From a bacterium (GTDB lineage: Bacteria > Patescibacteriota > Dojkabacteria > JAKAPS01 > JAJZLI01): DNA of 49,729 nucleotides. A program made the position numbers and the translations under genes. Each line of letters opens with the position of its first letter. Positions within the stretch are counted from its first letter, which is position 1. Where the stretch lies: the NCBI GenBank assembly GCA_021810605.1, contig JAJZIL010000007.1, positions 1 through 49,729 on the forward strand, read 5' to 3'. Positions 1,377 through 38,589 of this stretch are shown here, one piece after another. Under the pieces are notes generated by a model. The model did not search any database, had not been told where the DNA came from, and worked only from the letters and a program-made list of their open reading frames with translations.

Positions 1377-3005
1377 ATGATTTATCCAGAAAGACCTTCG
1401 GATATAAATACAGGTTCTACACATAATAGTACAACTATTAATGTATCTGAGGTACATACAATAGAAGAAAGTTTATATGAACAATTTGATAAAATAAAAG
1501 AAGATCCTGTAAATACAATATCTTTTTTTGGAGTAGAATACTTTCAGACAACAGAAGGTCAGACTTTACTACAAAATATTTTAACAGAAACTCAAACGGA
1601 GTTATTGCCTGGAACAGATCTAAATAATATTCTTAAAATATTAGATAAAATAGATTTTTCCAAATTAACTAAAAAAAGAAGAGATCAAATAATGACAGAA
1701 GTAAATAATTCTACTGAAGAAATATTATTTAATGAATTAAAAAAATACTTAATTAATAATAATGTCGACAGTTCTTTAGATAAAATCATAATACCTACTA
1801 AATATGAAATAGTTTTAAATCCAGAATCTGTAATTAAAAGATTAAATAATCTAAGAAAATTAAAAGGACAATTAAAAGAAGAAAGAAAAAACTATATTAA
1901 CAACCCAAAGATACTTTCTTCATATAGAGTATATATGGAGAAAATAAATATTCTTATTGTGGATTGCATTTATAATGTTATAGAAATAAAAGATAAAGAG
2001 GTAAGGATAGGAAATGATACTGAAGGATATCTTTCATATATAAAATCATTCAATAATATGCAAAAAAGAGAAAGAAACCTTTCAAGATTTGATTTTTTCA
2101 AAAATGGTGCAGGTGTAATTCAAAAAGGCAGATATACTCCTTTTGGAGAAAATCTTTTATCTTTCATAGATACATTAAAAAAAGAACAAATAGAAGATTT
2201 CGATACTGAAGACTTTAAAACTGAATTCGGAGAGAATTTCTTGGTTTCACCTGAATTTATGAAAGAACTATTTGAAGTAATGCTAGAATCTAATAAATTT
2301 GAAGGTTGGAGAGTCATAATAAGCGAAAAAGCGACTACATTATACGTAAATAACTCAAAAAGAACTATAACAATACCTAAAAGTTTTAAAAGAAATTTCT
2401 ACTCAATAAAACCTACTTCATCTGTACTAGCAATTGTAGCTCATGAAATGACTCATGTATTTCAAGCAGAAACTAGAAAAAAAATAGGAATAACTCTATT
2501 TACAAGAACAAATCCAGCAAGAAATAAGATATCTAGTGAAGGCGCTGGAGTGAGACAAGAAAAGAAAATACAAAATAAATTAAGTCTCCATAGACCAAGT
2601 AATTATCAATACTTTGATACAATGCAAAAAAAAATAGATGGGGGGAATTATGTAGAATGTGTCATAGTTTTTTATAAATCACTCCTTACTCAACATCCTC
2701 ATATTGATAAAGAAGAAGCATTAAAACTTGCGATCAATAGAACCAAAAGAATTTTTAGAAATCTAGGTGATACAAAAAGTACCGATGGATTTATTAGTAA
2801 TTCAGATCAATTAAACTATTTAGAACAAGAGATAACTACACTTTTAGATAAATATGGAGCTATTACCCCTTATGCAAAATATCTCATAGATTCAGGAGTG
2901 ATCAATCTAAAAGAAATAGAAGAGATAGAAAAAACATTTAAAACTGTAAATGAAATTATTACCCCAGATACAATCAAAGGATTAAAAAATAGATTCAATT
3001 TGTAA
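1377..3005 (+). CDS. zinc metallopeptidase, DUF1704/MatCAP-like
   Basis: This 542-residue protein has an HExxH zinc site, AHEMTH (H356, E357, H360), and about 28 residues later SSEGAGVRQE, which places E388 as a probable third ligand. The arrangement resembles the DUF1704/MATCAP gluzincin-like family, where HExxTH is followed by an EEGLA-type motif. The first 300 residues are charged, helical and not recognised. There is no signal peptide and no transmembrane segment, so a cytoplasmic peptidase is expected. The substrate is unknown; known relatives include tyrosine carboxypeptidases acting on tubulin, which cannot be transferred to a bacterium. It has no operon partner and converges on alr. 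Confidence 0.6.
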   Translation: MIYPERPSDINTGSTHNSTTINVSEVHTIEESLYEQFDKIKEDPVNTISFFGVEYFQTTEGQTLLQNILTETQTELLPGTDLNNILKILDKIDFSKLTKKRRDQIMTEVNNSTEEILFNELKKYLINNNVDSSLDKIIIPTKYEIVLNPESVIKRLNNLRKLKGQLKEERKNYINNPKILSSYRVYMEKINILIVDCIYNVIEIKDKEVRIGNDTEGYLSYIKSFNNMQKRERNLSRFDFFKNGAGVIQKGRYTPFGENLLSFIDTLKKEQIEDFDTEDFKTEFGENFLVSPEFMKELFEVMLESNKFEGWRVIISEKATTLYVNNSKRTITIPKSFKRNFYSIKPTSSVLAIVAHEMTHVFQAETRKKIGITLFTRTNPARNKISSEGAGVRQEKKIQNKLSLHRPSNYQYFDTMQKKIDGGNYVECVIVFYKSLLTQHPHIDKEEALKLAINRTKRIFRNLGDTKSTDGFISNSDQLNYLEQEITTLLDKYGAITPYAKYLIDSGVINLKEIEEIEKTFKTVNEIITPDTIKGLKNRFNL

Positions 3006-7660: not shown

Positions 7661-9121
7661 TTATTGATAAAGATTACAAATATCAGGCTTCCATCTTGGG
7701 AGATCATCCCTTGACCACTCACTCATTCCTCCTGATACAGAATATGATTCTATATTGTTATCCCGTAGCATTTTACTAGCTGATTGAGATGAAATTCCAT
7801 AATTACATACTACAATAATTTTATTACTTTTTAATATATCAACATATTTTGAAATATTATCTTCTAGATCTTCATATTCAATATTTAAAGATCCAGGAAT
7901 ATGGTAATGTAAAAAATCATTCTTTTTTCTTATATCCAAAATTTTTATATTTTTATTAATTTCAACTAATTTATCTGAAAGTACTTGACTCCAAACAATA
8001 TTAGGGTTGCTTTTAAATATCATATTATATGCTTTTCTAACTGATATTTCATATTTTGAGTCTGTATTGAAAGTAGAAATTTCACTTTTAGAATTCTTTG
8101 GTAATAGATATTCATTTTCTATCTTAGGAAATTCAGACTCCCCTAGATATTCAAAATATTCATCTACATATGGAATTGGACTATCACATGATATGAATAC
8201 TGCAATAATTTCTCCATTTTTATTTCTAAATTTATCTAAATTATTCTGTTTTTTAAGAAATTTTAAGAGACCTTCAAAAGCAAAACCAGAACTAGGTCCT
8301 ACTACTAAACCAAATCTACATAAATCTAGACTTGATTTAAAAGATTCTTTAGTCCCAATCTCTACCAATTCATCTACATATTGTTTCCAAATAAAAGGAA
8401 TTTCTTCTAATAGATTTTTGGTTCTTACACCAGGAACAGGATTATTAGGTATTCTCGATACACCTACTGTAGTAATACTATTTGATTTAGATTTTAAAAA
8501 TTTAGATGTTCCTTGTATTGTACCAGTGGTCCCCACTCCAGCACAAAAAATGCTAATCTCTCCTTCTGTTTGATCCCATATCTGTGGCCCTGTCCATTTT
8601 TCATGTGCCTTTGGATTATTCTCATTTGTATACTGTCCAGGATTGAACCAATCTTTATGTTTACTAGCCAAAATTTTAGATTTATAAATACCACTAGTTT
8701 TATCTTTTGGATCAGGACAAATTGCTTCCTTATTTACAATTACTTCTACTCCAAAAAGTCTCAATAAATTTAACTTTCCTCTTGAAACTTCATTAGATAC
8801 AATAGCTTTAGTATGATCTATTCCTAGAAGTTTTCCTATAACAGCAAGAGAAAGTACTGTATTCCCAGATGAATTTTCTATAAGGGTATTGACTTGATCC
8901 AACTCTCCCAAATCTTTAGATGAGAATAACATATTTAAAGCAGGTAATGACTTCACGTTAGTAAGAGGAAGAGTATTCATAAGTTTTGTATATATTCTTA
9001 CCTTATCATTATAGAATGGGTTAAGAACTCTAGGAATCTCGACTAATGGAATATATTCATTTTTATCAGGATTGAGATAATCTAATACCGAATTTTTACC
9101 TGAAAATACAGATTTATTCAT
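7661..9121 (-). CDS. cysteine synthase/CBS-like PLP enzyme fused to rhodanese domain
   Basis: The first 320 or so residues are a fold-type II PLP enzyme of the cysteine synthase/cystathionine beta-synthase family: K57 in TNVKSLPA is the probable PLP lysine, ENSSGNT (83-88) binds the substrate carboxylate, GVGTTGTIQG is the phosphate-binding loop and VVGPSSGFA is the C-terminal motif. A rhodanese domain occupies about residues 375-480, with catalytic C439 in VVCNYGISSQSA. A fusion of this kind couples cysteine or persulfide chemistry to sulfur transfer. It is the third gene of the fur operon and its ATG overlaps the stop of the CooC-like gene by 4 bp, so it is probably translationally coupled. 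Confidence 0.82.
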   Translation of the reverse strand: MNKSVFSGKNSVLDYLNPDKNEYIPLVEIPRVLNPFYNDKVRIYTKLMNTLPLTNVKSLPALNMLFSSKDLGELDQVNTLIENSSGNTVLSLAVIGKLLGIDHTKAIVSNEVSRGKLNLLRLFGVEVIVNKEAICPDPKDKTSGIYKSKILASKHKDWFNPGQYTNENNPKAHEKWTGPQIWDQTEGEISIFCAGVGTTGTIQGTSKFLKSKSNSITTVGVSRIPNNPVPGVRTKNLLEEIPFIWKQYVDELVEIGTKESFKSSLDLCRFGLVVGPSSGFAFEGLLKFLKKQNNLDKFRNKNGEIIAVFISCDSPIPYVDEYFEYLGESEFPKIENEYLLPKNSKSEISTFNTDSKYEISVRKAYNMIFKSNPNIVWSQVLSDKLVEINKNIKILDIRKKNDFLHYHIPGSLNIEYEDLEDNISKYVDILKSNKIIVVCNYGISSQSASKMLRDNNIESYSVSGGMSEWSRDDLPRWKPDICNLYQ

Positions 9122-10080
9122 ATACTACTGGGATCAAAATTATCATCAATCTGATATGTAAGATCTCCAAATCTATCTTTAATAGAATCTTGAGATACAT
9201 ATTTTCTATGTAATTCATATAATTTTTCTAATCTAGATTTTAAATCAGGAGTAATAAAATCTAGCATCTTTTTAATATTAGAAAATAAATCCATATTATT
9301 ATCTTCAAGTTTATCTATATCAAGAGGAGAATAATCTTGATCAGCATCTGATAAATACTCTGATAAATACAAATATCCAATTATTTTATTTTCAGGAATA
9401 AATGATTTTAAGAAATTTTTATCTTTATTATTTCTAATCTTATTTCCTACAACAAAAAGTAAATTTTCTACACCTGCAACCTTAGCAAGTTCTATATACT
9501 GGTTATATACATCTACTCCTCTTCTAGTAGGTTCTACAGATAAAAATAATCTATCAAATTGTGCATGAAGACTTCCTGCGAAAGCATCTATTCCTGCTAC
9601 CATATCAGAGACTACATAGCCATCTCTATCTATAAGGTGAGAAAGAATATTCTCAAGTATAGCCAGATTATTATGGTAACAACTAGCCCCTATCTCTCCT
9701 TTTTCATAAGTACCTACATTCATAAGATATATATTATCCTTCTCAAGAGTATAATTAGAAAGTATATAGTCATCTTTATTACTAAGATTTACAAAATTTG
9801 ATAAACTGTTAGGTGGAGTTGTTTTTCTAAACTCTACTAAAGATTTAATTTTATCATTATCTCCTTTCAAATAGGTTTTTATATCTTTTATAGACTCACT
9901 ATCAGATATATTAAGCTTAGTTTTAGTTTTATCATCAAAACCAATTAAACCTCCAAGATGCATATTTATATCTGCATCTACAGCAAGTATTGGTAATCCT
10001 ATTTTTTTTAAATACTCAATTGTTAAAGCTGAAAGTGTTGTTTTGCCACTTCCACCTTTTCCTACAAATGCAATTCTCAT
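9118..10080 (-). CDS. CooC/MinD-like P-loop ATPase
   Basis: This 320-residue SIMIBI-class ATPase begins with the deviant Walker A motif GKGGSGKTT (7-15). DADINMHLGG follows, then DMVAGIDAFAG (switch II region) and LSVEPTRRGVDVYNQY, the CooC-like nucleotide-binding segment. CooC proteins help insert nickel into carbon monoxide dehydrogenase, but no such enzyme is visible here, so the partner is unknown. Its place between a Fur regulator and a sulfur-transfer fusion suggests metal or Fe-S handling (inference). It is one of the few genes here with a strong Shine-Dalgarno. Confidence 0.78.
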   Translation of the reverse strand: MRIAFVGKGGSGKTTLSALTIEYLKKIGLPILAVDADINMHLGGLIGFDDKTKTKLNISDSESIKDIKTYLKGDNDKIKSLVEFRKTTPPNSLSNFVNLSNKDDYILSNYTLEKDNIYLMNVGTYEKGEIGASCYHNNLAILENILSHLIDRDGYVVSDMVAGIDAFAGSLHAQFDRLFLSVEPTRRGVDVYNQYIELAKVAGVENLLFVVGNKIRNNKDKNFLKSFIPENKIIGYLYLSEYLSDADQDYSPLDIDKLEDNNMDLFSNIKKMLDFITPDLKSRLEKLYELHRKYVSQDSIKDRFGDLTYQIDDNFDPSSI

Positions 10081-10086
10081 AATTTA

Positions 10087-10093
10087 CTCCTTC
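10087..10093 (-). promoter_or_regulatory. strong Shine-Dalgarno of the CooC-like gene
   Basis: On the minus strand GAAGGAG ends six bases before the ATG at 10080. It overlaps the TGA stop of fur (10092-10094), so the two genes are one transcript. This contrasts with the promoter-proximal genes of the window, which lack such a site. Confidence 0.7.
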
Positions 10094-10532
10094 AATTATT
10101 TAATTTATTTTGACACTTCAAACAAACACCAAAAAATTCTATAAATTTATTGGTTATTTTAAAATCACTTACAGTCTCTATTCTGATTTTTTCTTTATCT
10201 AAATACTCTTCATTTATTTTTATGTGTTTAATACTACTACATTCATTGCAAATTAAATGATGATGATGAAAATATTCATTACTGTACTCATATAATTTTG
10301 ATTTTTTTAATTTACCTATATTAACTTCTGTAATAAAATTCTTATCTAAAAGAAAATATAGTTCTCTATATATAGTAGTTTTATTAGCAGTAATATTTTT
10401 TTTATTTAAAAGATAAAGTATTTTATCTGCAGAATATATACCCTTTTTAACATAAAAAATAGATATTATATTGAATCTTATAGGAGTCATCCTATAACCC
10501 TGAATTTTAAACTTAGATAGAATATTATCCAT
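10092..10532 (-). CDS. Fur-family metal- or redox-responsive repressor
   Basis: A 146-residue Fur/Zur/PerR-type regulator. The N-terminal winged helix has the DNA-binding segment ITANKTTIYRELYFL, followed by the His cluster YFHHHHLICNEC and a C-terminal GVCLKCQ, i.e. two CxxC pairs that usually form the structural zinc site. The metal sensed is not deducible. The start is taken at the ATG at 10532: a longer frame begins at 10568 but that stretch is the promoter (-35, spacer palindrome, -10). Transcript start would coincide with the ATG. It heads the operon fur, CooC-like, synthase-rhodanese and is probably autoregulated through the palindrome. Confidence 0.88.
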   Translation of the reverse strand: MDNILSKFKIQGYRMTPIRFNIISIFYVKKGIYSADKILYLLNKKNITANKTTIYRELYFLLDKNFITEVNIGKLKKSKLYEYSNEYFHHHHLICNECSSIKHIKINEEYLDKEKIRIETVSDFKITNKFIEFFGVCLKCQNKLNN

Positions 10533-10539
10533 TCTATAT

Positions 10540-10568
10540 ATTATAATGCAACTATGTTGCATTTGCAA
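10540..10568 (-). promoter_or_regulatory. fur operon promoter with palindromic operator filling the spacer
   Basis: On the minus strand: TTGCAA (-35, 10563-10568), 17-bp spacer (10546-10562), TATAAT (-10, 10540-10545), then 7 bp to ATG. The entire spacer is a perfect inverted repeat, ATGCAAC-ATA-GTTGCAT (7-3-7). A dimeric repressor there would block RNA polymerase completely, and the first gene encodes a Fur-type dimer. No second copy of the palindrome was found in the window. Confidence 0.75.
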
Positions 10569-11262: not shown

Positions 11263-11559
11263 ATCTTATACTATACCTTATTTCTTTTTTTAAAGAAAAG
11301 TATGAAAATACGAAACTTACTTATTATATACAATTACCATAATAAATAGATATAATCGCAAGACATACAAAAACTTTGGAATAATATTTTCCAACCTAAA
11401 GCTAAAGATAGAGATTTTAAATTATAATATAAAATACCCCACAAAAAACTTTATATAAAAGGAAGATTGATATAATAAAATTTATAAGCATAATTCTTTT
11501 TAAGTTCAATATAAATAAAGATATTTATTAATTATAATATATATAGCTTATATATATAA

Positions 11560-11588
11560 TTGATAAAAACTATAGGTAATGATATAAT
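11560..11588 (+). promoter_or_regulatory. promoter of HTH-array gene copy 1
   Basis: TTGATA (11560-11565), 17-bp spacer, TATAAT (11583-11588), then TCCCACT and ATG at 11596. The -35 hexamer coincides with the TTG that opens the longest frame, so that TTG is not the start codon. The 7-bp gap implies a leaderless mRNA. The same promoter is conserved in copy 2. Confidence 0.75.
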
Positions 11589-11595
11589 TCCCACT

Positions 11596-14500
11596 ATGGG
11601 AAATGAACAATACAGACATATTCAAAATGAATATTTTCAAAATCAGTTGAATGATATTCTACAAAGTAATTTAACTCCAGATAATGAAATTTTCGAAGAA
11701 AGGAAAGAAGTTCCACATTTAAAAATTTTACTATTCTTATTAAAAGAAAATTTAGGAATAGATATTAATGATAGTAATGAACTTACCATTATAAAGGGAA
11801 AAGTAGATTCTAATATGATGAGAAATTCCCCTTATTATGGAGTAAAAATACTATCTTTAAATAGAACAGTATTGATTTGTGATCAGATAGATAATGTAAC
11901 ATTTATATTAGATAATAATTTATTACATATACAAGATGATGAGTTGCTAAATCTAACTAAAGATGAATTAAAGAATTTTATTGAATTTAATAAGAACTTA
12001 GGAAAAATGATACAATATTCAGAAAACTATATCCAAGATATTATTTTTGCACTCACTAATAAATTATCACAATCTAATACAGATCCTGAAACATTAACAG
12101 ATCTCTATCCAAAACCTATACATAATATATTAAGTATTAATGGAATGAGTACTTTGTTTGGTATATCAAACTCTACTCTTTCTAAAGTTATTAAAGAACT
12201 TCAGGAAGATTTAGGTGAAGTACAAAAATATAGTCTTGGTACCAGAATAACAGAGGGTTATACATTAGAACAGCAAGAGAAAATTAGACAAGGATTAAAA
12301 GATAAAGGGGTATTTACAGAAAAGGCACCTGAGAATATCTTAAGTATAACAGGAATAAGTACTTTGTTTGGTATATCAAGACCCACTCTTTCTAGAGTTA
12401 TTAAAGAACTTCAGGAAGATTTAGGTGAAGTACAAAAATATCGTTTTGGTACCAGTATAACATATGGTTATACATTAGAACAACAAGAGAAAATTAGACA
12501 AGTATTAAAAGATAAGGAGGTATTTACAGAAAAGGCACCTGAAGCACCTGAGAATATCTTAAGTATAAGAGGAATGAGTACTTTGTTTGGGATATCAAAC
12601 TACAATATTTCTAAAGTTATTAAAGAACTTCAAGAAGATTTGGGTGAAGTACAAAGATATAGTTTTGGTACCAAAATAACAGATGGTTATACATTAGAAC
12701 AGCAAGAGAAAATTAGACAAGGATTAAAAGATAAAGGGGTATTTACAGAAAAGGCACCTGAAGCACCTGAGAATATATTAAGTATTAATGGAATGAGTAC
12801 TTTGTTTGGTATATCAAACTCTACTCTTTCTAAAGTTATTAAAGAACTTCAGGAAGATTTAGGTGAATTACAAAAATATCGTTTTTATTCAAAAATAACA
12901 GAGGGTTATACATTAGAACAGCAAGAGAAAATTAGACAAGGATTAAAAGATAAAGGGGTATTTACAGAAAAGGTACCTGAAAATATATTAAGTATTAATG
13001 GAATGAGTACTTTGTTTGGTATATCAAGCCAAACTATTTCTAAAGTTATTGAAGAACTTCAAGAAGATTTAGGTGAAGTACAAAAATATTATTTTGGGAA
13101 AGTAGTAACATATGGTTATACATTAGAACAACAAGAGAAAATTAAACAAGGATTAGATAAGAGGGTATTTACAGAAAAGGCACCTGAAGCACCTGAGAAT
13201 ATATTAAGTATTAATGGAATGAGTACTTTGTTTGGTATATCAAAACCCACTCTTTCTAAAGTTATTAAAGAACTTCAAGAAGATTTAGGTGAAATACAAA
13301 AATATCGTTTTTATTCAAAAATAACATATGGTTATACATTAAAACAGCAAGAGAAAATTAGACAAGAATTAGATAAGAGGGTATTTACAAAAAAAGTACC
13401 TAAAGAACCTGAGAATATCTTAAGTATAAGGGGAATGAGAAATTTGTTTGGCATATCAAACTACAATATTTCTAAAGTTATTAAAGAACTTCAAGAAGAT
13501 TTAGGTGAAGTACAAAAATATAGTCTTGGTACCAGAATAACATATGGTTATACATTAGAACAGCAAGAGAAAATTAGACAAGGATTAAAAGATAAAGGGG
13601 TATTTACAGAAAAGGTACCTGAGAATATATTAAGTATTAATGGAATGAGTACTTTGTTTGGTATATCAAACTACAATATTTCTAAAGTTATTAAAGAACT
13701 TCAGGAAGATTTAGGTGAAATACAAAAATATCGTTTTCGTTCAAAAATAACAGAGGGTTATACATTAGAACAGCAAGAGAAAATTAGACAAGGATTAAAA
13801 GATAAAGGGGTATTTACAGAAAAAGTCCCTGAGAATATATTAAGTATTAATGGAATGAGTACTTTGTTTGGTATATCAAACCCCACTCTTTCTAAAGTTA
13901 TTGAAGAACTTCAAGAAGATTTAGGTGAAGTACAAAAATATCGTTTTTATTCAAAAATAACAGAGGGTTATACATTAAAACAGCAAGAGAAAATTAGACA
14001 AGAATTAGATAAGAGGGTATTTACAGAAAAGGCACCTGAAGCACCTAAGAATATATTAAGTATTAATAGAATAAGTACTTTGTTTGGTATATCAAGACCC
14101 ACTCTTTATAGAGTTATTAAAGAACTTCAGGAAGATTTAGGTGAAGTACAAAAATATCGTTTTCGTTCAAAAATAACAGATGGTTATACATTAGAACAGC
14201 AAGAGAAAATTAGACAAGGATTAGATAAGAGGGTATTTACAGAAAAGGTACCTGAGAATATATTAAGTATTAATGGAATGCAAACTTTATTTGGTATATC
14301 AAGCTATAATATTTCTAAAGTTATTGAAGAACTTCAAGAAGATTTAGGTGAAGTACAAAAATATCATTTTTATTCAAATATAACATATGGTTATACATTA
14401 GAACAACAAGAGAAAATTAGACAAGTATTAAAAGATAAGGGGTTATTTTCAGAAAAAGCACCTGAAGCACCTGAGAATATATTAAGTATAAGAGGAATGA

Positions 14501-14676
14501 CTACTTCGTTTGGCACATCAAACTACACTATTTCTAAAGTTATTAAAGAACTTCAAGAAGATTTAGGTGAAGTACAAAAATATTATTTTGGTACCAAAAT
14601 AACATATGGTTATACATTAGAACAGCAAGAGAAAATTAGACAAGCAATTCAACAAAAAAATAAGAAAAATATTTGA
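11596..14676 (+). CDS. tandem helix-turn-helix array protein, 12 repeats (copy 1)
   Basis: The 1026-residue protein has an N-terminal region of about 176 residues, unrecognised (conserved with copy 2: SPYYGVKILSLNRTVLICDQ), then 12 direct repeats of 66-73 residues to the stop. Each repeat looks like a complete HTH unit: MSTLFGIS (helix 2 and turn), a recognition-type helix ending KVIKELQEDLGE, a wing-like QKYRFYSKITEGYT and a helix LEQQEKIRQGL, then a Pro-rich linker (KAPE, KAPEAPE, KVPE). Backbones are nearly identical. Changes cluster at the two residues after GIS (NS, RP, NY, SQ, KP, NP, SY) and in the wing. No enzymatic domain or signal peptide. I infer a modular nucleic-acid-binding protein; the role is unknown. 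The start is set by the promoter. Confidence 0.8.
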   Translation: MGNEQYRHIQNEYFQNQLNDILQSNLTPDNEIFEERKEVPHLKILLFLLKENLGIDINDSNELTIIKGKVDSNMMRNSPYYGVKILSLNRTVLICDQIDNVTFILDNNLLHIQDDELLNLTKDELKNFIEFNKNLGKMIQYSENYIQDIIFALTNKLSQSNTDPETLTDLYPKPIHNILSINGMSTLFGISNSTLSKVIKELQEDLGEVQKYSLGTRITEGYTLEQQEKIRQGLKDKGVFTEKAPENILSITGISTLFGISRPTLSRVIKELQEDLGEVQKYRFGTSITYGYTLEQQEKIRQVLKDKEVFTEKAPEAPENILSIRGMSTLFGISNYNISKVIKELQEDLGEVQRYSFGTKITDGYTLEQQEKIRQGLKDKGVFTEKAPEAPENILSINGMSTLFGISNSTLSKVIKELQEDLGELQKYRFYSKITEGYTLEQQEKIRQGLKDKGVFTEKVPENILSINGMSTLFGISSQTISKVIEELQEDLGEVQKYYFGKVVTYGYTLEQQEKIKQGLDKRVFTEKAPEAPENILSINGMSTLFGISKPTLSKVIKELQEDLGEIQKYRFYSKITYGYTLKQQEKIRQELDKRVFTKKVPKEPENILSIRGMRNLFGISNYNISKVIKELQEDLGEVQKYSLGTRITYGYTLEQQEKIRQGLKDKGVFTEKVPENILSINGMSTLFGISNYNISKVIKELQEDLGEIQKYRFRSKITEGYTLEQQEKIRQGLKDKGVFTEKVPENILSINGMSTLFGISNPTLSKVIEELQEDLGEVQKYRFYSKITEGYTLKQQEKIRQELDKRVFTEKAPEAPKNILSINRISTLFGISRPTLYRVIKELQEDLGEVQKYRFRSKITDGYTLEQQEKIRQGLDKRVFTEKVPENILSINGMQTLFGISSYNISKVIEELQEDLGEVQKYHFYSNITYGYTLEQQEKIRQVLKDKGLFSEKAPEAPENILSIRGMTTSFGTSNYTISKVIKELQEDLGEVQKYYFGTKITYGYTLEQQEKIRQAIQQKNKKNI
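12124..14673 (+). repeat. 12 tandem coding repeats of 198-219 bp
   Basis: Repeat starts are at 12124, 12334, 12553, 12772, 12982, 13198, 13414, 13624, 13834, 14050, 14257 and 14476. Length differences come from the linker (one or two APE-type units) and from a deletion changing LKDKG to LDKR. DNA identity between repeats is very high, including synonymous positions, so the array must expand, contract or convert by recombination. The last two repeats share features with the last two of copy 2 (VLKDKGLFSEKAPE, then a common C-terminus AIQQKNKKNI). Confidence 0.92.
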
Positions 14677-14840
14677 TATATTGAAGGTATTCATAGTTTT
14701 TCCTACTAAAATTCAATCTATTCCAAATTTCTATTTCTGAGATTTCTATCTAACATTACCACTTATCAGCATAATTCTTTTTAAGTTCAATACAGATAAA
14801 GATATTTATTAATTATAATACATATAACTTATATACATAA

Positions 14841-14869
14841 TTGATAAAAACTATAGGTAATGATATAAT
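14841..14869 (+). promoter_or_regulatory. promoter of HTH-array gene copy 2
   Basis: TTGATA (14841-14846), a 17-bp spacer identical to that of copy 1, TATAAT (14864-14869), then GCCCACT and ATG at 14877. As in copy 1 the TTG of the longest open frame is the -35 element. Confidence 0.75.
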
Positions 14870-14876
14870 GCCCACT

Positions 14877-16775
14877 ATGGAAAATGAACAATACAGACAT
14901 ATTCAAAATGAATTCAGTCAAAGTGAATATTTTCAAAATAAGTTGAATGATATCCTACAAAGTAAATTAACCCCAGATAATGTAGATGAATATACAGAAA
15001 CAGCATTATCTTTATTAATTAACTTATCTAATGAAGTAACTACTTGTTTTAAGAAGGATATAAAAAAGAATTTTGCTAATCTTTCAGAAGGAGAAATTGA
15101 AGATCTTGCATTTGAACATTATAAAATTCAAAATATATCTGAAATATTAGACCAAATACATAATATTACTTATAGTCTAAAAGATATCGATCATAGAATT
15201 TCAAATATTCCTGAATGTAACCTAATTATTGTCCCCCCAGATAAAAAAGATATTACACTATATAAAAGAAATGGAGTTTTCGAAGAAAGGAAAGAAATTC
15301 CACGTTTAAAAATTTTACTATTCTTATTAAAAGAAAATTTAGGAATAGATATTAATGATAGTAATGAACTTACCATTGTAAAGGGAAAAGTAGATTCTAA
15401 TATGATGAGAATTTCCCCTTATTATGCAGTAAAAATACTATCTTTAAATAGAACAGTATTGATTTGTGATCAGATAGGTAATGTAACATTTGTACTAGAT
15501 AATAATTTATTATATATACAAGATAATGAATTACTAAATCTAACTAAAGATGAATTAAAGAATTTTATTGAATTTAATGAAAACTTAGGAAGAATGATAC
15601 GATATTCAAAAAATTATATCCAAGATATTATTTTTGCACTCACTAATAAATTATCACAATCTAATACAAATCCTGAAACATTATTTAATGTTAATAAATA
15701 TCTTTATCCAAAACCTATACATAATACCTTAAGTATAAGGGGAATGAGCACTTTGTTTGGCATATCAAGACGCACTATTTCTAAAGTTATTGAAGAACTT
15801 CAAGAAGATTTAGGTGAAACACAAAAATATCGTTTTAGTACAATAATAACAGATGGTTATACATTAGAACAACAAGAGAAAATTAAACAAGGATTAGAAG
15901 CTAGAGGGTTATTTACAGAAAAGGTACCTGAGAATATCTTAAATATAAAGGGAATGAGTACTTTGTTTGGGATATCAACACCCACTATTTCTAAAGTTAT
16001 TGAAGAACTTCAAGAAGATTTAGGTAAAGTACAAAAATATAGTTTTGGTCAAAAAAATGTTGTAACACATGGTTATACATTAGAACAACAAGAGAAAATT
16101 AAACAAGGATTAGAAGCTAGAGGGTTATTTACAGAAAAGGCACCTAATGATATCTTAAGTATTAAGGAAATAAGTACTTTGTTTGGGATATCAACACCCA
16201 CTATTTCTAAAGTTATTGAAGAACTTCAAGAAGATTTAGGTAAAGTACAAAAATATAATTTTTATTCAAAAAATGTTCTGACAGATGGTTATACATTAGA
16301 ACAACAAGAGAAAATTAAACAAGGGTTAAAAACTAGAGGGTTATTTTCAGAAAAAGCACCTGAGAATATCTTAAGTATAAGAGGAATGACTACTTTGTTT
16401 GGGATATCAACAGAAACTATTTCTAAGATTATTGAAGAACTTCAAGAAAATTTAGGTGAAGTACAAAAATATCGTTTTCGTTCAAAAATAACAGATGGTT
16501 ATACATTAGAACAACAAGAGAAAATTAGACAAGTATTAAAAGATAAGGGGTTATTTTCAGAAAAAGCACCTGAGAATATCTTAAGTACTAATAGAATGAG
16601 TACTTTATTTGGTATATCAAACCCCACTATTTCTAAAATTATTAAAGAACTTCAAGAAGATTTAGGTGAAGTACAAAAATATAGTTTTGGTACCAGAATA
16701 ACATATGGTTATACATTAGAACAGCAAGAGAAAATTAGACAAGCAATTCAACAAAAAAATAAGAAAAATATTTGA
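14877..16775 (+). CDS. tandem helix-turn-helix array protein, 5 repeats (copy 2)
   Basis: A 632-residue paralogue of the preceding gene. Its N-terminal region is longer, about 282 residues, with a helical segment (KKDIKKNFANLSEGEIEDLA) missing from copy 1 through an in-frame 97-codon difference. The block LKILLFLLKENLGIDINDSN to IIFALTNKLSQSN is shared. Five HTH repeats follow. Residues after GIS are RR, TP, TP, TE and NP. Repeats 2 and 3 carry two extra residues in the wing (QKNVVTHGYT, SKNVLTDGYT). The extra N-terminal segment suggests copy 2 is nearer the ancestral form. Function is unknown; DNA binding is inferred from the HTH pattern. Confidence 0.78.
   Translation: MENEQYRHIQNEFSQSEYFQNKLNDILQSKLTPDNVDEYTETALSLLINLSNEVTTCFKKDIKKNFANLSEGEIEDLAFEHYKIQNISEILDQIHNITYSLKDIDHRISNIPECNLIIVPPDKKDITLYKRNGVFEERKEIPRLKILLFLLKENLGIDINDSNELTIVKGKVDSNMMRISPYYAVKILSLNRTVLICDQIGNVTFVLDNNLLYIQDNELLNLTKDELKNFIEFNENLGRMIRYSKNYIQDIIFALTNKLSQSNTNPETLFNVNKYLYPKPIHNTLSIRGMSTLFGISRRTISKVIEELQEDLGETQKYRFSTIITDGYTLEQQEKIKQGLEARGLFTEKVPENILNIKGMSTLFGISTPTISKVIEELQEDLGKVQKYSFGQKNVVTHGYTLEQQEKIKQGLEARGLFTEKAPNDILSIKEISTLFGISTPTISKVIEELQEDLGKVQKYNFYSKNVLTDGYTLEQQEKIKQGLKTRGLFSEKAPENILSIRGMTTLFGISTETISKIIEELQENLGEVQKYRFRSKITDGYTLEQQEKIRQVLKDKGLFSEKAPENILSTNRMSTLFGISNPTISKIIKELQEDLGEVQKYSFGTRITYGYTLEQQEKIRQAIQQKNKKNI
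15723..16772 (+). repeat. 5 tandem coding repeats of 198-216 bp
   Basis: Repeat starts are at 15723, 15933, 16149, 16365 and 16575. Repeats 1-3 form a subfamily (KIKQGLEARGLF or KTRGLF), while repeats 4-5 match the 3' end of the copy 1 array. This pattern fits internal gain or loss of units between fixed outer repeats. Confidence 0.9.
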
Positions 16776-17048
16776 TATATTGGAGGTATTCATAGTTTTT
16801 TCTACTAAAATTTAATCTATTCCAAATTTCTATTTCTGAGATTTCTATCTAATATTACTATTATCTTTATTATATTTTGGAAAATATAGAAATATATTAT
16901 TATTTTCCCTTACATTGTACAAAAAGATGCTTTTATTTTATAAAGATGATATACTGTATTCTTGCAATAGTTAGTATAGGTATTATAAGTTTATTTTAAG
17001 ATCTATAAGAGCTAGATCAAATTAAATAAATTTATAATATATAATACT

Positions 17049-27422: not shown

Positions 27423-28283
27423 ATGGGAGGAATCTTATTTTTGTTGCTATATTCTCTACTTCTAGGAGTAATACATGGTATTACCCCTGATGAGCACACT
27501 TGGCCAATTACATTTAGCTATGCGATTGGAGCATTCTCTACTAAAAAGGGTATTTTTGTAGCTTTTCTATTTACTTTGGCATTTACGTTTCAAAGAGCCA
27601 TAGCATCAGAAATTGTATATCTTGCAATAATAAATGTAAAAGCATTTTATTCTATAAACGGCTATATATATACTATTGTAGGAATTGTTATGCTTGTAGC
27701 AGGAGTATATGTTCTAAATAAACATAGTATACTACACTTAGATTTTTTCCCTGCATCTTGGCTAGGAAAAAAACATACACATGATATGGAAGAGTATCCA
27801 AAAGAAATAAAGCCTTCTATGGCTCTCGTTCACGGATTTATTGCAGGATGGGGTTTTGGATCATTTGCTCTTATTCTATATACAATAATAGTACCTCAGA
27901 TGCCTAATGCCTATACAGCATTCCTTCCAGGAGTAATGTTTGGATTAGGAACTATGCTTGTACAAGCAGTTTTTGGAGGACTTTTTGGCCAATGGATAAG
28001 AAAAATGAATCTGCCAGAAAATAAAGGACTCGAGATTGCATCAAAAATAGCAGGAAATACTCTTACTTATGGAGGGTTAGTATTTATTATAGGTGGAATA
28101 TTTACTCTATCTTTACCTAAAATAGCTAATCTATCAGTCAATACAGGTATAGATATAGGAAACTTACATCACTTAGGAATAGGATTTGTAATGGTAACAT
28201 TTACTGTATTAATCATAGGAATGGGATCTTTATACTATTTTGTAAGAGAAACTAAAAAAGAATATGCCAATAAAGGAAACTAA
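27423..28283 (+). CDS. NicO/UreH-like metal transporter-type membrane protein
   Basis: A 286-residue protein with about seven membrane segments. The first helix carries GVIHGITPDEH, like the HX4DH metal-binding motif of nickel/cobalt transporters (NicO, RcnA, UreH). A second short His-rich loop, KKHTHDMEE, lies near residue 118. The family moves nickel, cobalt or related substrates; direction and ion cannot be told. It overlaps the start of the hexokinase-like gene by 20 bp. Confidence 0.65.
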   Translation: MGGILFLLLYSLLLGVIHGITPDEHTWPITFSYAIGAFSTKKGIFVAFLFTLAFTFQRAIASEIVYLAIINVKAFYSINGYIYTIVGIVMLVAGVYVLNKHSILHLDFFPASWLGKKHTHDMEEYPKEIKPSMALVHGFIAGWGFGSFALILYTIIVPQMPNAYTAFLPGVMFGLGTMLVQAVFGGLFGQWIRKMNLPENKGLEIASKIAGNTLTYGGLVFIIGGIFTLSLPKIANLSVNTGIDIGNLHHLGIGFVMVTFTVLIIGMGSLYYFVRETKKEYANKGN

Positions 28284-29166
28284 CAATTATATAATCAATA
28301 ATATAAAAACAGTCATATACTCAAATAGTTTTAACTCTCTTATAAAGAGAGAACGATTGTCAAAAAAACAAAATTCTACAGTAATTGGTATAGGAGGATC
28401 ACACATATATTTTTCAAAATTATCCGGATTGAAAATAGAAAGAACCCATAAAGAAAGGATAAATTTTAAAGATAAGGATAAATTTTTTGAAAATATTATA
28501 TATAAATACAATGAAGAAAAATTTCAAAATAAAAATACTATTGTAATATTCTCATATCCTTTTAGAGCATATAGAAAAGATACTATTATTGATGGAATAT
28601 ATAAAAAAAATACTGAGGTTACTAAAGTAATTCCATTCAAAGATGATACTTTTAATCTATCAGATAAGCTTAATAGTAATTTCAATATTGTAAATGATGC
28701 AGTGGCAGTTAATTTATATAATATATATAAATATTCTGGATATGATATATATATTTCAGCTATATCTGGAACTGGAGTAAATATTGCTTATACACAAGAT
28801 AACTTAGTTATAAATTCTGAATATGGAAATATACAAATTCCAAAAGATATTATTAGCCTAACAAATATTTTTTCAAATTCTACATTTGAGAGTGTTATTG
28901 CAGAAAATTCTTTAAGAAAAATATCAAAAATAAAAGATATAGATTACAAATATTTAAAAAAAATATCTGCAAAAATATTTGCTCTTTCCATAGTATCTTT
29001 TATATCAGATTATAAATCTGCATCTGTTCTATTCCAAGGATCATTTATTTGTAAAGACAAAGAGTATAGAGATAGAGTAATAAGCATAATAAAGGCTAAT
29101 TATAAAGGTCATATTCATATAGATTATGATAATCTCTCAGATATAAAAGGGGCTTCTCTTATATAA
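28264..29166 (+). CDS. ASKHA-fold kinase, hexokinase-like
   Basis: The 300-residue protein has the phosphate-1 loop GIGGSHIYFS (42-51), a catalytic-type Asp D145 in IVNDAVAVN, the phosphate-2 loop ISGTGVNIAY (167-176) and an adenosine-like VLFQGSF near residue 255. This order fits a hexokinase/ROK-type sugar kinase of the ASKHA superfamily. It is smaller than typical hexokinases, and the sugar-binding segment is divergent. Its ATG lies inside the preceding transporter gene, so translation is probably coupled. Confidence 0.6.
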   Translation: MPIKETNNYIINNIKTVIYSNSFNSLIKRERLSKKQNSTVIGIGGSHIYFSKLSGLKIERTHKERINFKDKDKFFENIIYKYNEEKFQNKNTIVIFSYPFRAYRKDTIIDGIYKKNTEVTKVIPFKDDTFNLSDKLNSNFNIVNDAVAVNLYNIYKYSGYDIYISAISGTGVNIAYTQDNLVINSEYGNIQIPKDIISLTNIFSNSTFESVIAENSLRKISKIKDIDYKYLKKISAKIFALSIVSFISDYKSASVLFQGSFICKDKEYRDRVISIIKANYKGHIHIDYDNLSDIKGASLI

Positions 29167-30225: not shown

Positions 30226-31119
30226 TTATTCTAGATAACCTAAATTTTTAAATATAGAGTATATCTTAGTCCAATATACGCTACTAAATACAGAAAGTAA
30301 TGCTGATGCATAGAGAACTATGAGTGTTCCTATAATTTCAAAACTAACCCCCAACATAAAATTATATTTTATTATATCTAGTGCTACTGAAACTATTATG
30401 GACTCCATTATTCCTAAAATGAAAGATAGAATTATAATTGTCATGATATAAAAAGATATTACTCTGAGATATTCTAATTTATTTTTCCAGAAAGATTTAT
30501 ATGACAATATTATAGAATCGATTATATCTAATTCTTTATCTGGATCAAGAACTAGTCTTATTCCTACAAATGATAGAGAAAATAATATTATAAAGAATAA
30601 CATTAATAGAATAAGAACAATAAAATTTATTACAGGAATAATTAAGAAAAATATTGCTATTAAAATAACAATAATTGAGATAATAATTGCAAGAATATAA
30701 TAGATTATATAATACACTATATATTCTTTCCATTTTTCCTTTCCTCTATCCCATGATGATATAAAATTTTCATTCCCTTCACCTGAAATGACATATTTTA
30801 TGAGTGCAGTAGATGAAAAGGATGTAAAGTAGATTGATGCAACTATATATACTAAAAGTAATACAAGTATTATAAATATTTCACTTGTATGTACTGTATA
30901 GATTGAATATAGTTTGGAATAAAAATGATTAACATAAGATTGTGTTATTTTTGTAGGAATATTAAATTCTTTAATATGAATATAATTTATTATAAATACA
31001 ATAGATGAGAAAATCACAGAAATAATCCCCAAATAAAATATATTTATATTTTGAAAAAACATAGATATAGCATTTCTAGATATGCCTACAAGTTGACTAA
31101 ATGAAAAGTTTTCGTTCAT
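30226..31119 (-). CDS. multi-pass membrane protein of unknown function
   Basis: A 297-residue protein with about six hydrophobic segments, several very long and Ile-rich (from AIIISIIVILIAIFFLII). Between segments are soluble loops such as ISSWDRGKEKWKEY and SYKSFWKNKLEYLRV. The layout resembles CPR membrane proteins of the glycerophosphoryl-diester-phosphodiesterase membrane-domain/DUF type, but I cannot assign a family. TACAAT lies 9 bp before the ATG. Confidence 0.5.
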   Translation of the reverse strand: MNENFSFSQLVGISRNAISMFFQNINIFYLGIISVIFSSIVFIINYIHIKEFNIPTKITQSYVNHFYSKLYSIYTVHTSEIFIILVLLLVYIVASIYFTSFSSTALIKYVISGEGNENFISSWDRGKEKWKEYIVYYIIYYILAIIISIIVILIAIFFLIIPVINFIVLILLMLFFIILFSLSFVGIRLVLDPDKELDIIDSIILSYKSFWKNKLEYLRVISFYIMTIIILSFILGIMESIIVSVALDIIKYNFMLGVSFEIIGTLIVLYASALLSVFSSVYWTKIYSIFKNLGYLE

Positions 31120-38292: not shown

Positions 38293-38589
38293 ATGAATAT
38301 AATATATAGTGTACTATTTTCTATAATTGGAATTTTAATAATAATATTTCTTATTATTATAATTAAAACTGTATTTGATATAGATAAAAATGTTGTTAAA
38401 GGAAAAGATATAATAGAAAATGTATCTGAAATAACTCAAAACACAAAAAACGAACAAGAAAAGATCCATTCAATGATTAATGATAAAATAGATAAGGTAA
38501 ATATAATATCTAAATTTAAAATAGCTGAAAATCTAATTGAGACTTTTACAAAAGTTTATAGAAATAAAAAGAAAAACAAAACTTTATAA
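38293..38589 (+). CDS. single-pass membrane protein with helical tail
   Basis: A 98-residue protein with an N-terminal transmembrane segment (from IIYSVLFSIIGILII to about residue 27) and a charged helical tail. The family is unknown. Its stop overlaps the ATG of the FtsA-like gene (TAATG), so the two are co-expressed. It may be a membrane tether for the FtsA-like ATPase (inference). Confidence 0.5.
   Translation: MNIIYSVLFSIIGILIIIFLIIIIKTVFDIDKNVVKGKDIIENVSEITQNTKNEQEKIHSMINDKIDKVNIISKFKIAENLIETFTKVYRNKKKNKTL

Follow-up and report, generated by a model that had tools for sequence, protein, structure and literature searches.

Tandem arrays of predicted winged helix-turn-helix units in a Dojkabacteria genome vary at putative DNA-contact positions

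In TALE and TALE-like proteins (Xanthomonas, Ralstonia, BurrH, MOrTL), near-identical tandem repeats show variability that is confined to the reading positions, each TALE repeat being a helical hairpin of about 34 residues which reads one base. A homogenised scaffold with diversifying DNA-contact positions is also found in PRDM9 and C2H2 zinc-finger arrays, which are eukaryotic and of a fold unrelated to the one described here; PRDM9-type arrays are rapidly evolving, with their contact positions diversifying (PMC8925151). BldC (68 residues), phage Xis and RdfS are small winged helix-turn-helix (HTH) proteins that line up head to tail along DNA. BldC protomers do so on 9-bp direct repeats, with the recognition helix in the major groove and the wing in the minor groove (PMC5859096), and in the filaments of all three, recognition is largely by indirect readout, be it of DNA shape or of minor grooves rich in AT (PMC5859096, PMC11963761). 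TraN of pIP501 (PDB 4P0Z, 6G1T) is a single chain with two winged HTH units of the MerR type, and in its crystal with DNA the contacts are made by R23, N24, Q28, G47, G48, H82, R86, G100 and K101 (PMC10877727). Here we describe two genes whose products would join such units into long arrays. While the parts are known, their assembly into such arrays appears to be new: no described family was matched, and no paper describing such arrays was found in a literature search that leaves many journals outside its coverage, in line with what an earlier note on this DNA, made from the letters alone, had stated. A TALE-inspired screen covered only repeats of 30-43 residues (PMC5472282), and it would thus have missed units of 70 residues.

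The window, i.e. the whole stretch of 49,729 nucleotides that was analysed, comes from an AT-rich genome of 746 kb, a size and composition that would suit the CPR origin guessed at in the earlier note, and contains two intact, co-oriented ORFs on the plus strand. Gene A (11560..14676, +) starts with TTG, an alternative start being the ATG at 11596, and encodes 1038 amino acids: an acidic N-terminal region of 188 residues (pI 4.7) followed by 12 predicted winged-HTH units. Gene B (14841..16775, +) encodes 644 amino acids, with a likewise acidic N-terminal region of 294 residues and 5 units. Array A (12124..14673, +) is composed of units A1-A6, starting at 12124, 12334, 12553, 12772, 12982 and 13198, and A7-A12, starting at 13414, 13624, 13834, 14050, 14257 and 14476; in array B (15723..16772, +) units B1-B5 start at 15723, 15933, 16149, 16365 and 16575. 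ORFs and profile matches therefore agree with the earlier note, which had described two adjacent genes with 12 and 5 tandem units of about 70 residues. The units are 66-73 residues long, their DNA identity is 81-97%, and all 17 represent different versions of one scaffold; linker length differs between them, and in B2 and B3 the wing tip is longer by two inserted residues. As the longest exact repeat is 96 bp, the number of units in the assembly could have been obtained from ordinary reads. Elsewhere in the window, the sizeable ORFs at 1377-3005, 27423-28283, 28264-29166 and 30226-31119 have no Pfam match at E 0.001.

Genes A and B are tandem duplicates, as the DNA identity of their N-terminal parts (88-92%) and of their 3' ends and flanks (95%) indicates. 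The 3' end of gene A together with its downstream sequence (14642..14767) recurs as a 95% copy at the 3' end of gene B (approximately 16741-16865), and this repeat is the mark of a tandem gene duplication. The N-terminal region of gene B (14841..15722, +) has a counterpart in gene A that is shorter by about 97 internal residues. This in-frame difference, around 11683 in A and at about 14979-15272 in B, was either lost from A or gained by B, and the extra residues are mostly predicted to be helical. Neither homologue and family profile searches nor PADLOC models gave the N-terminal region a convincing relative or match, and its predicted model had no confident fold (pLDDT 41); the only weak relative, in G044, contains three internal stops and is probably a chance match. 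The acidic N-terminal region may serve for contact with a partner.

Differences between the units are concentrated in a few columns. Ranked by entropy over the 17 units, the most variable columns are 17, 16, 37, 41, 44, 39, 57, 6, 40 and 9; columns 16, 17, 37, 39, 40, 41 and 44 have four to six residues each, nearly all variable residues being polar, charged or aromatic, while most codons of the scaffold show little or no difference, matching the almost invariant scaffold of the earlier note. Its claim that variation sits in two spots, the recognition helix and the wing, holds for the top of this ranking and fails for columns 6, 9 and 57, which vary as well. Of the 80 minimal changes over 174 columns, 35 fall in the top 8 codons against 26 expected, and clustering this extreme was obtained in 0 of 20,000 uniform random placements, while in invariant codons 6 of 7 fourfold sites never vary; the variation is thus far from uniformly spread. 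The two spots appear to be shuffled with respect to each other: all 17 helix/wing combinations are distinct, and units with similar helices are no more alike in their wings (Mantel r ~0, p 0.50). For instance, the wing SLGTR occurs with different helices in A1 and A7, and the helix NYNI with different wings in A3, A7 and A8. Helix and wing alleles thus combine independently, which suggests reassortment of the two halves.

One could assume that all this goes back to a single HTH unit which was recently amplified in tandem and has no function, the variation being due to drift or a mutational hot spot. The family is indeed very rare (see below), the gene duplication is recent, and dN/dS between the N-terminal regions of A and B is 0.73, which points to weak constraint there. 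However, both long frames are intact with in-frame indels only, near-invariant scaffold codons lie beside hypervariable ones, and a second genus, with an identity of about one half, has the same scaffold and variable sites. A diversity-generating retroelement is excluded as the source of variation, since a scan of the entire genome (96% complete) for RVT_1 gave no match while the positive controls did. We therefore regard functionless amplification as very improbable.

Each unit is predicted to be a winged HTH of the MerR/BldC/excisionase type, and the earlier note's proposal of winged-HTH repeats is thus supported by modelling. AlphaFold2, given four units and an alignment made of sliding windows along the arrays, returned in each unit, with moderate per-unit confidence, the topology H5-12, H16-25, E34-38, E41-46, H48-60, that is, a helix-turn-helix, a two-stranded wing and a third helix. 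BldC has its elements in this order as well (PMC5859096). Confidence in the array model is low (mean pLDDT 60), with only unit 1 mostly at 70-80, and the arrangement of units in it is poorly supported (pTM 0.28). In a Foldseek search of this model against the PDB, chains of TraN were among the best local matches (probability 0.93-0.96, E 0.005-0.015), no match reaching E 0.001; Cox, PrtN, excisionase and MerR-type HTH proteins were among the matches in viral models. At the level of sequence, a search of the PDB returned nothing significant, the single first unit stayed below every Pfam cut-off, and MerR and HTH_17 were absent from the 25 families listed for 13 units in a Pfam scan. Dozens of HTH families assigned to the whole proteins (Pfam, PHROGs, NCBIfam, PADLOC) were rejected as sums of weak matches over the units, the single units that were tested being below cut-offs; the PADLOC defence models, too, matched only such summed weak HTH stretches.

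TraN is the most telling solved relative of the units. An ordinary gapped alignment of the units to TraN, whose sequence was taken from plasmid pRE25, gave no usable register. When columns 4-28 were slid along TraN without gaps, the best two offsets, 7 and 61, were TraN's two HTH halves, a placement that is not decisive for the wing alone. In this register R23, N24, Q28, G47 and G48 correspond to columns 16, 17, 21, 40 and 41, and H82, R86, G100 and K101 to columns 21, 25, 39 and 40. Five of these seven columns (16, 17, 21, 25 and 39-41) are among the most variable ones, with a mean entropy of 1.39 bits at TraN-contact columns versus 0.41 elsewhere (permutation p 0.0002). Columns 21 and 25, where TraN makes base contacts, are almost constant, and column 57 is variable though it lies outside the expected DNA-facing surface. 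With BldC contacts placed by secondary structure (our register, after PMC5859096), the effect was weaker (p 0.03). In G007, a genome of another genus, 5 of 5 wing columns chosen beforehand differ between two units as opposed to 6 of 21 others (p=0.007), so the same wing columns vary in a homologue. By this alignment, the hypervariable columns fall where TraN touches bases and the minor groove, and the earlier suggestion that the variable positions are DNA-contact positions of known folds gains weight. Yet the units of TraN number just two, have diverged strongly and pack into an internal dimer, and the protein lacks repeat amplification, a near-identical scaffold and an N-terminal region; its family is defined by two units in about 120 amino acids encoded in a conjugation operon, whereas the arrays have 12 and 5 units and no transfer genes were recognised among the neighbouring genes scanned.

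Tandem winged-helix proteins with RNA or protein roles also exist, such as SelB and ESCRT-II, and ESCRT-II and Pol III winged-helix subunits matched weakly in the fold search, so the units might recognise RNA or protein instead of duplex DNA. This seems quite unlikely to us, because the best local structural matches are DNA-binding proteins of the MerR/excisionase type and the variability follows their DNA contacts.

A more serious question is whether DNA would be read specifically. The arrays could act as a nucleoid-type architectural or bridging protein of low specificity, with the variable residues being a weakly constrained surface. On one hand, BldC, Xis and RdfS depend largely on indirect readout (PMC5859096, PMC11963761), GC content of the window is 25.6%, and the arrays are only mildly basic (pI 8.5-8.7; array A 8.5). 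On the other hand, nonsynonymous divergence at the contact columns is 2.9 times the overall synonymous level, compared to 0.58 elsewhere (TraN contacts; p 0.00015), and relaxed constraint alone would not give such an excess of amino-acid change; moreover, hardly any variation is seen at exposed positions on helix 3 and on the rear face of helix 2. In the values we report, contact columns were set by TraN or BldC contacts or by G007; dN/dS on columns chosen for being variable was discarded as circular. We consider low-specificity binding rather unlikely.

We lean towards a different explanation, namely a covalent, BldC-like head-to-tail filament of winged-HTH units, each of them reading its own DNA subsite, with selection keeping the contacts different. 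In such a filament, 12 and 5 MerR/BldC-type units would be joined head to tail in A and B. The scaffold (hydrophobic core, F12/I14, Y36, F38, GYT, linker) would hold the unit and probably contact the next one. In BldC, Phe21 and Val23 pack between neighbouring protomers (PMC5859096); in the secondary-structure register they correspond to F12 of the units, which is invariant, and I14, present in 16 of 17, and we infer that this conservation fits a fused filament. On the DNA side would lie columns 16-18, which form the first turn of the recognition helix, and columns 37, 39-41 and 44 of the wing, with residues that change from one unit to another. If the chain follows duplex DNA as BldC does on its 9-bp repeats, every unit being on its own subsite, array A could span roughly 110 bp and array B roughly 45 bp. 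BldC, Xis and RdfS filaments consist of identical, non-covalently associated protomers, whereas here the units are fused and their contact residues differ, so a chain of this kind would be expected to bind a long, non-repeating site. Units may have spread by duplication and recombination, and the arrays might regulate genes, organise the chromosome, or act in defence, whether for mobile DNA or against it; binding, specificity, spacing and role are all to be read as inference.

The earlier note compared the layout to TALEs. This comparison is apt as regards a constant scaffold with variable sites; the fold is different (33-35 residue two-helix repeats with a variable inter-helix pair in TALE-like proteins, longer units with a wing here), and the BldC/Xis/RdfS filament is mechanically nearer. 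It is a tentative idea, and one we would sooner doubt than assert, that the arrays represent a modular, potentially programmable class of DNA readers in which helix and wing form a transferable code reassorted by recombination for long DNA. Should this hold, modular arrays to set beside TALEs and zinc fingers would have been built from the winged HTH, which ranks among the commonest DNA-binding folds in bacteria. With their shared scaffold, the 17 natural units would then amount to a ready-made experiment on how helix and wing determine specificity, and a new engineering scaffold could be developed from them.

In a profile search, units were present in 2 of 86 genomes of the class, namely the window's own genome and G007, which belongs to the same family. 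Among 380 genomes across the phylum there was no convincing match, the few weak hits being single short matches (L028 and L030, found among the weak order and phylum hits, have no array and look like chance), and genome contigs, viral contigs, phages and plasmids gave no homologues. The G007 copy ends at a contig end after about 1.5 units. Its contig C22 (L050, 1-327) starts inside the array, and thus more members of the family may be concealed where assemblies collapse repeats.

In a genome of the same genus (G001), the PEMT-like and DEAD-box genes are adjacent (L045), while the window has about 5.6 kb extra between them (approximately 11280..16915). Since nearly all relatives are without arrays, a gain in the window's lineage is a simpler account of these sequences than a loss in G001, which is possible too. 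Visual inspection of the insertion edges showed no evident target-site duplication. The G007 array adjoins a pilM/ftsA-like gene, whose homologue in the window lies at 38589, another locus. At 7661-10568 (-) in the window, PALP/rhodanese, CooC/ArsA-like ATPase and Fur-like genes form a cluster that is 77-89% identical to one in G007. G001, G002, G003, G005 and G006 yielded no copy of the CooC/ArsA-like ATPase gene, and the cluster, being common to just the two array-bearing genomes among those compared, suggests lateral transfer.
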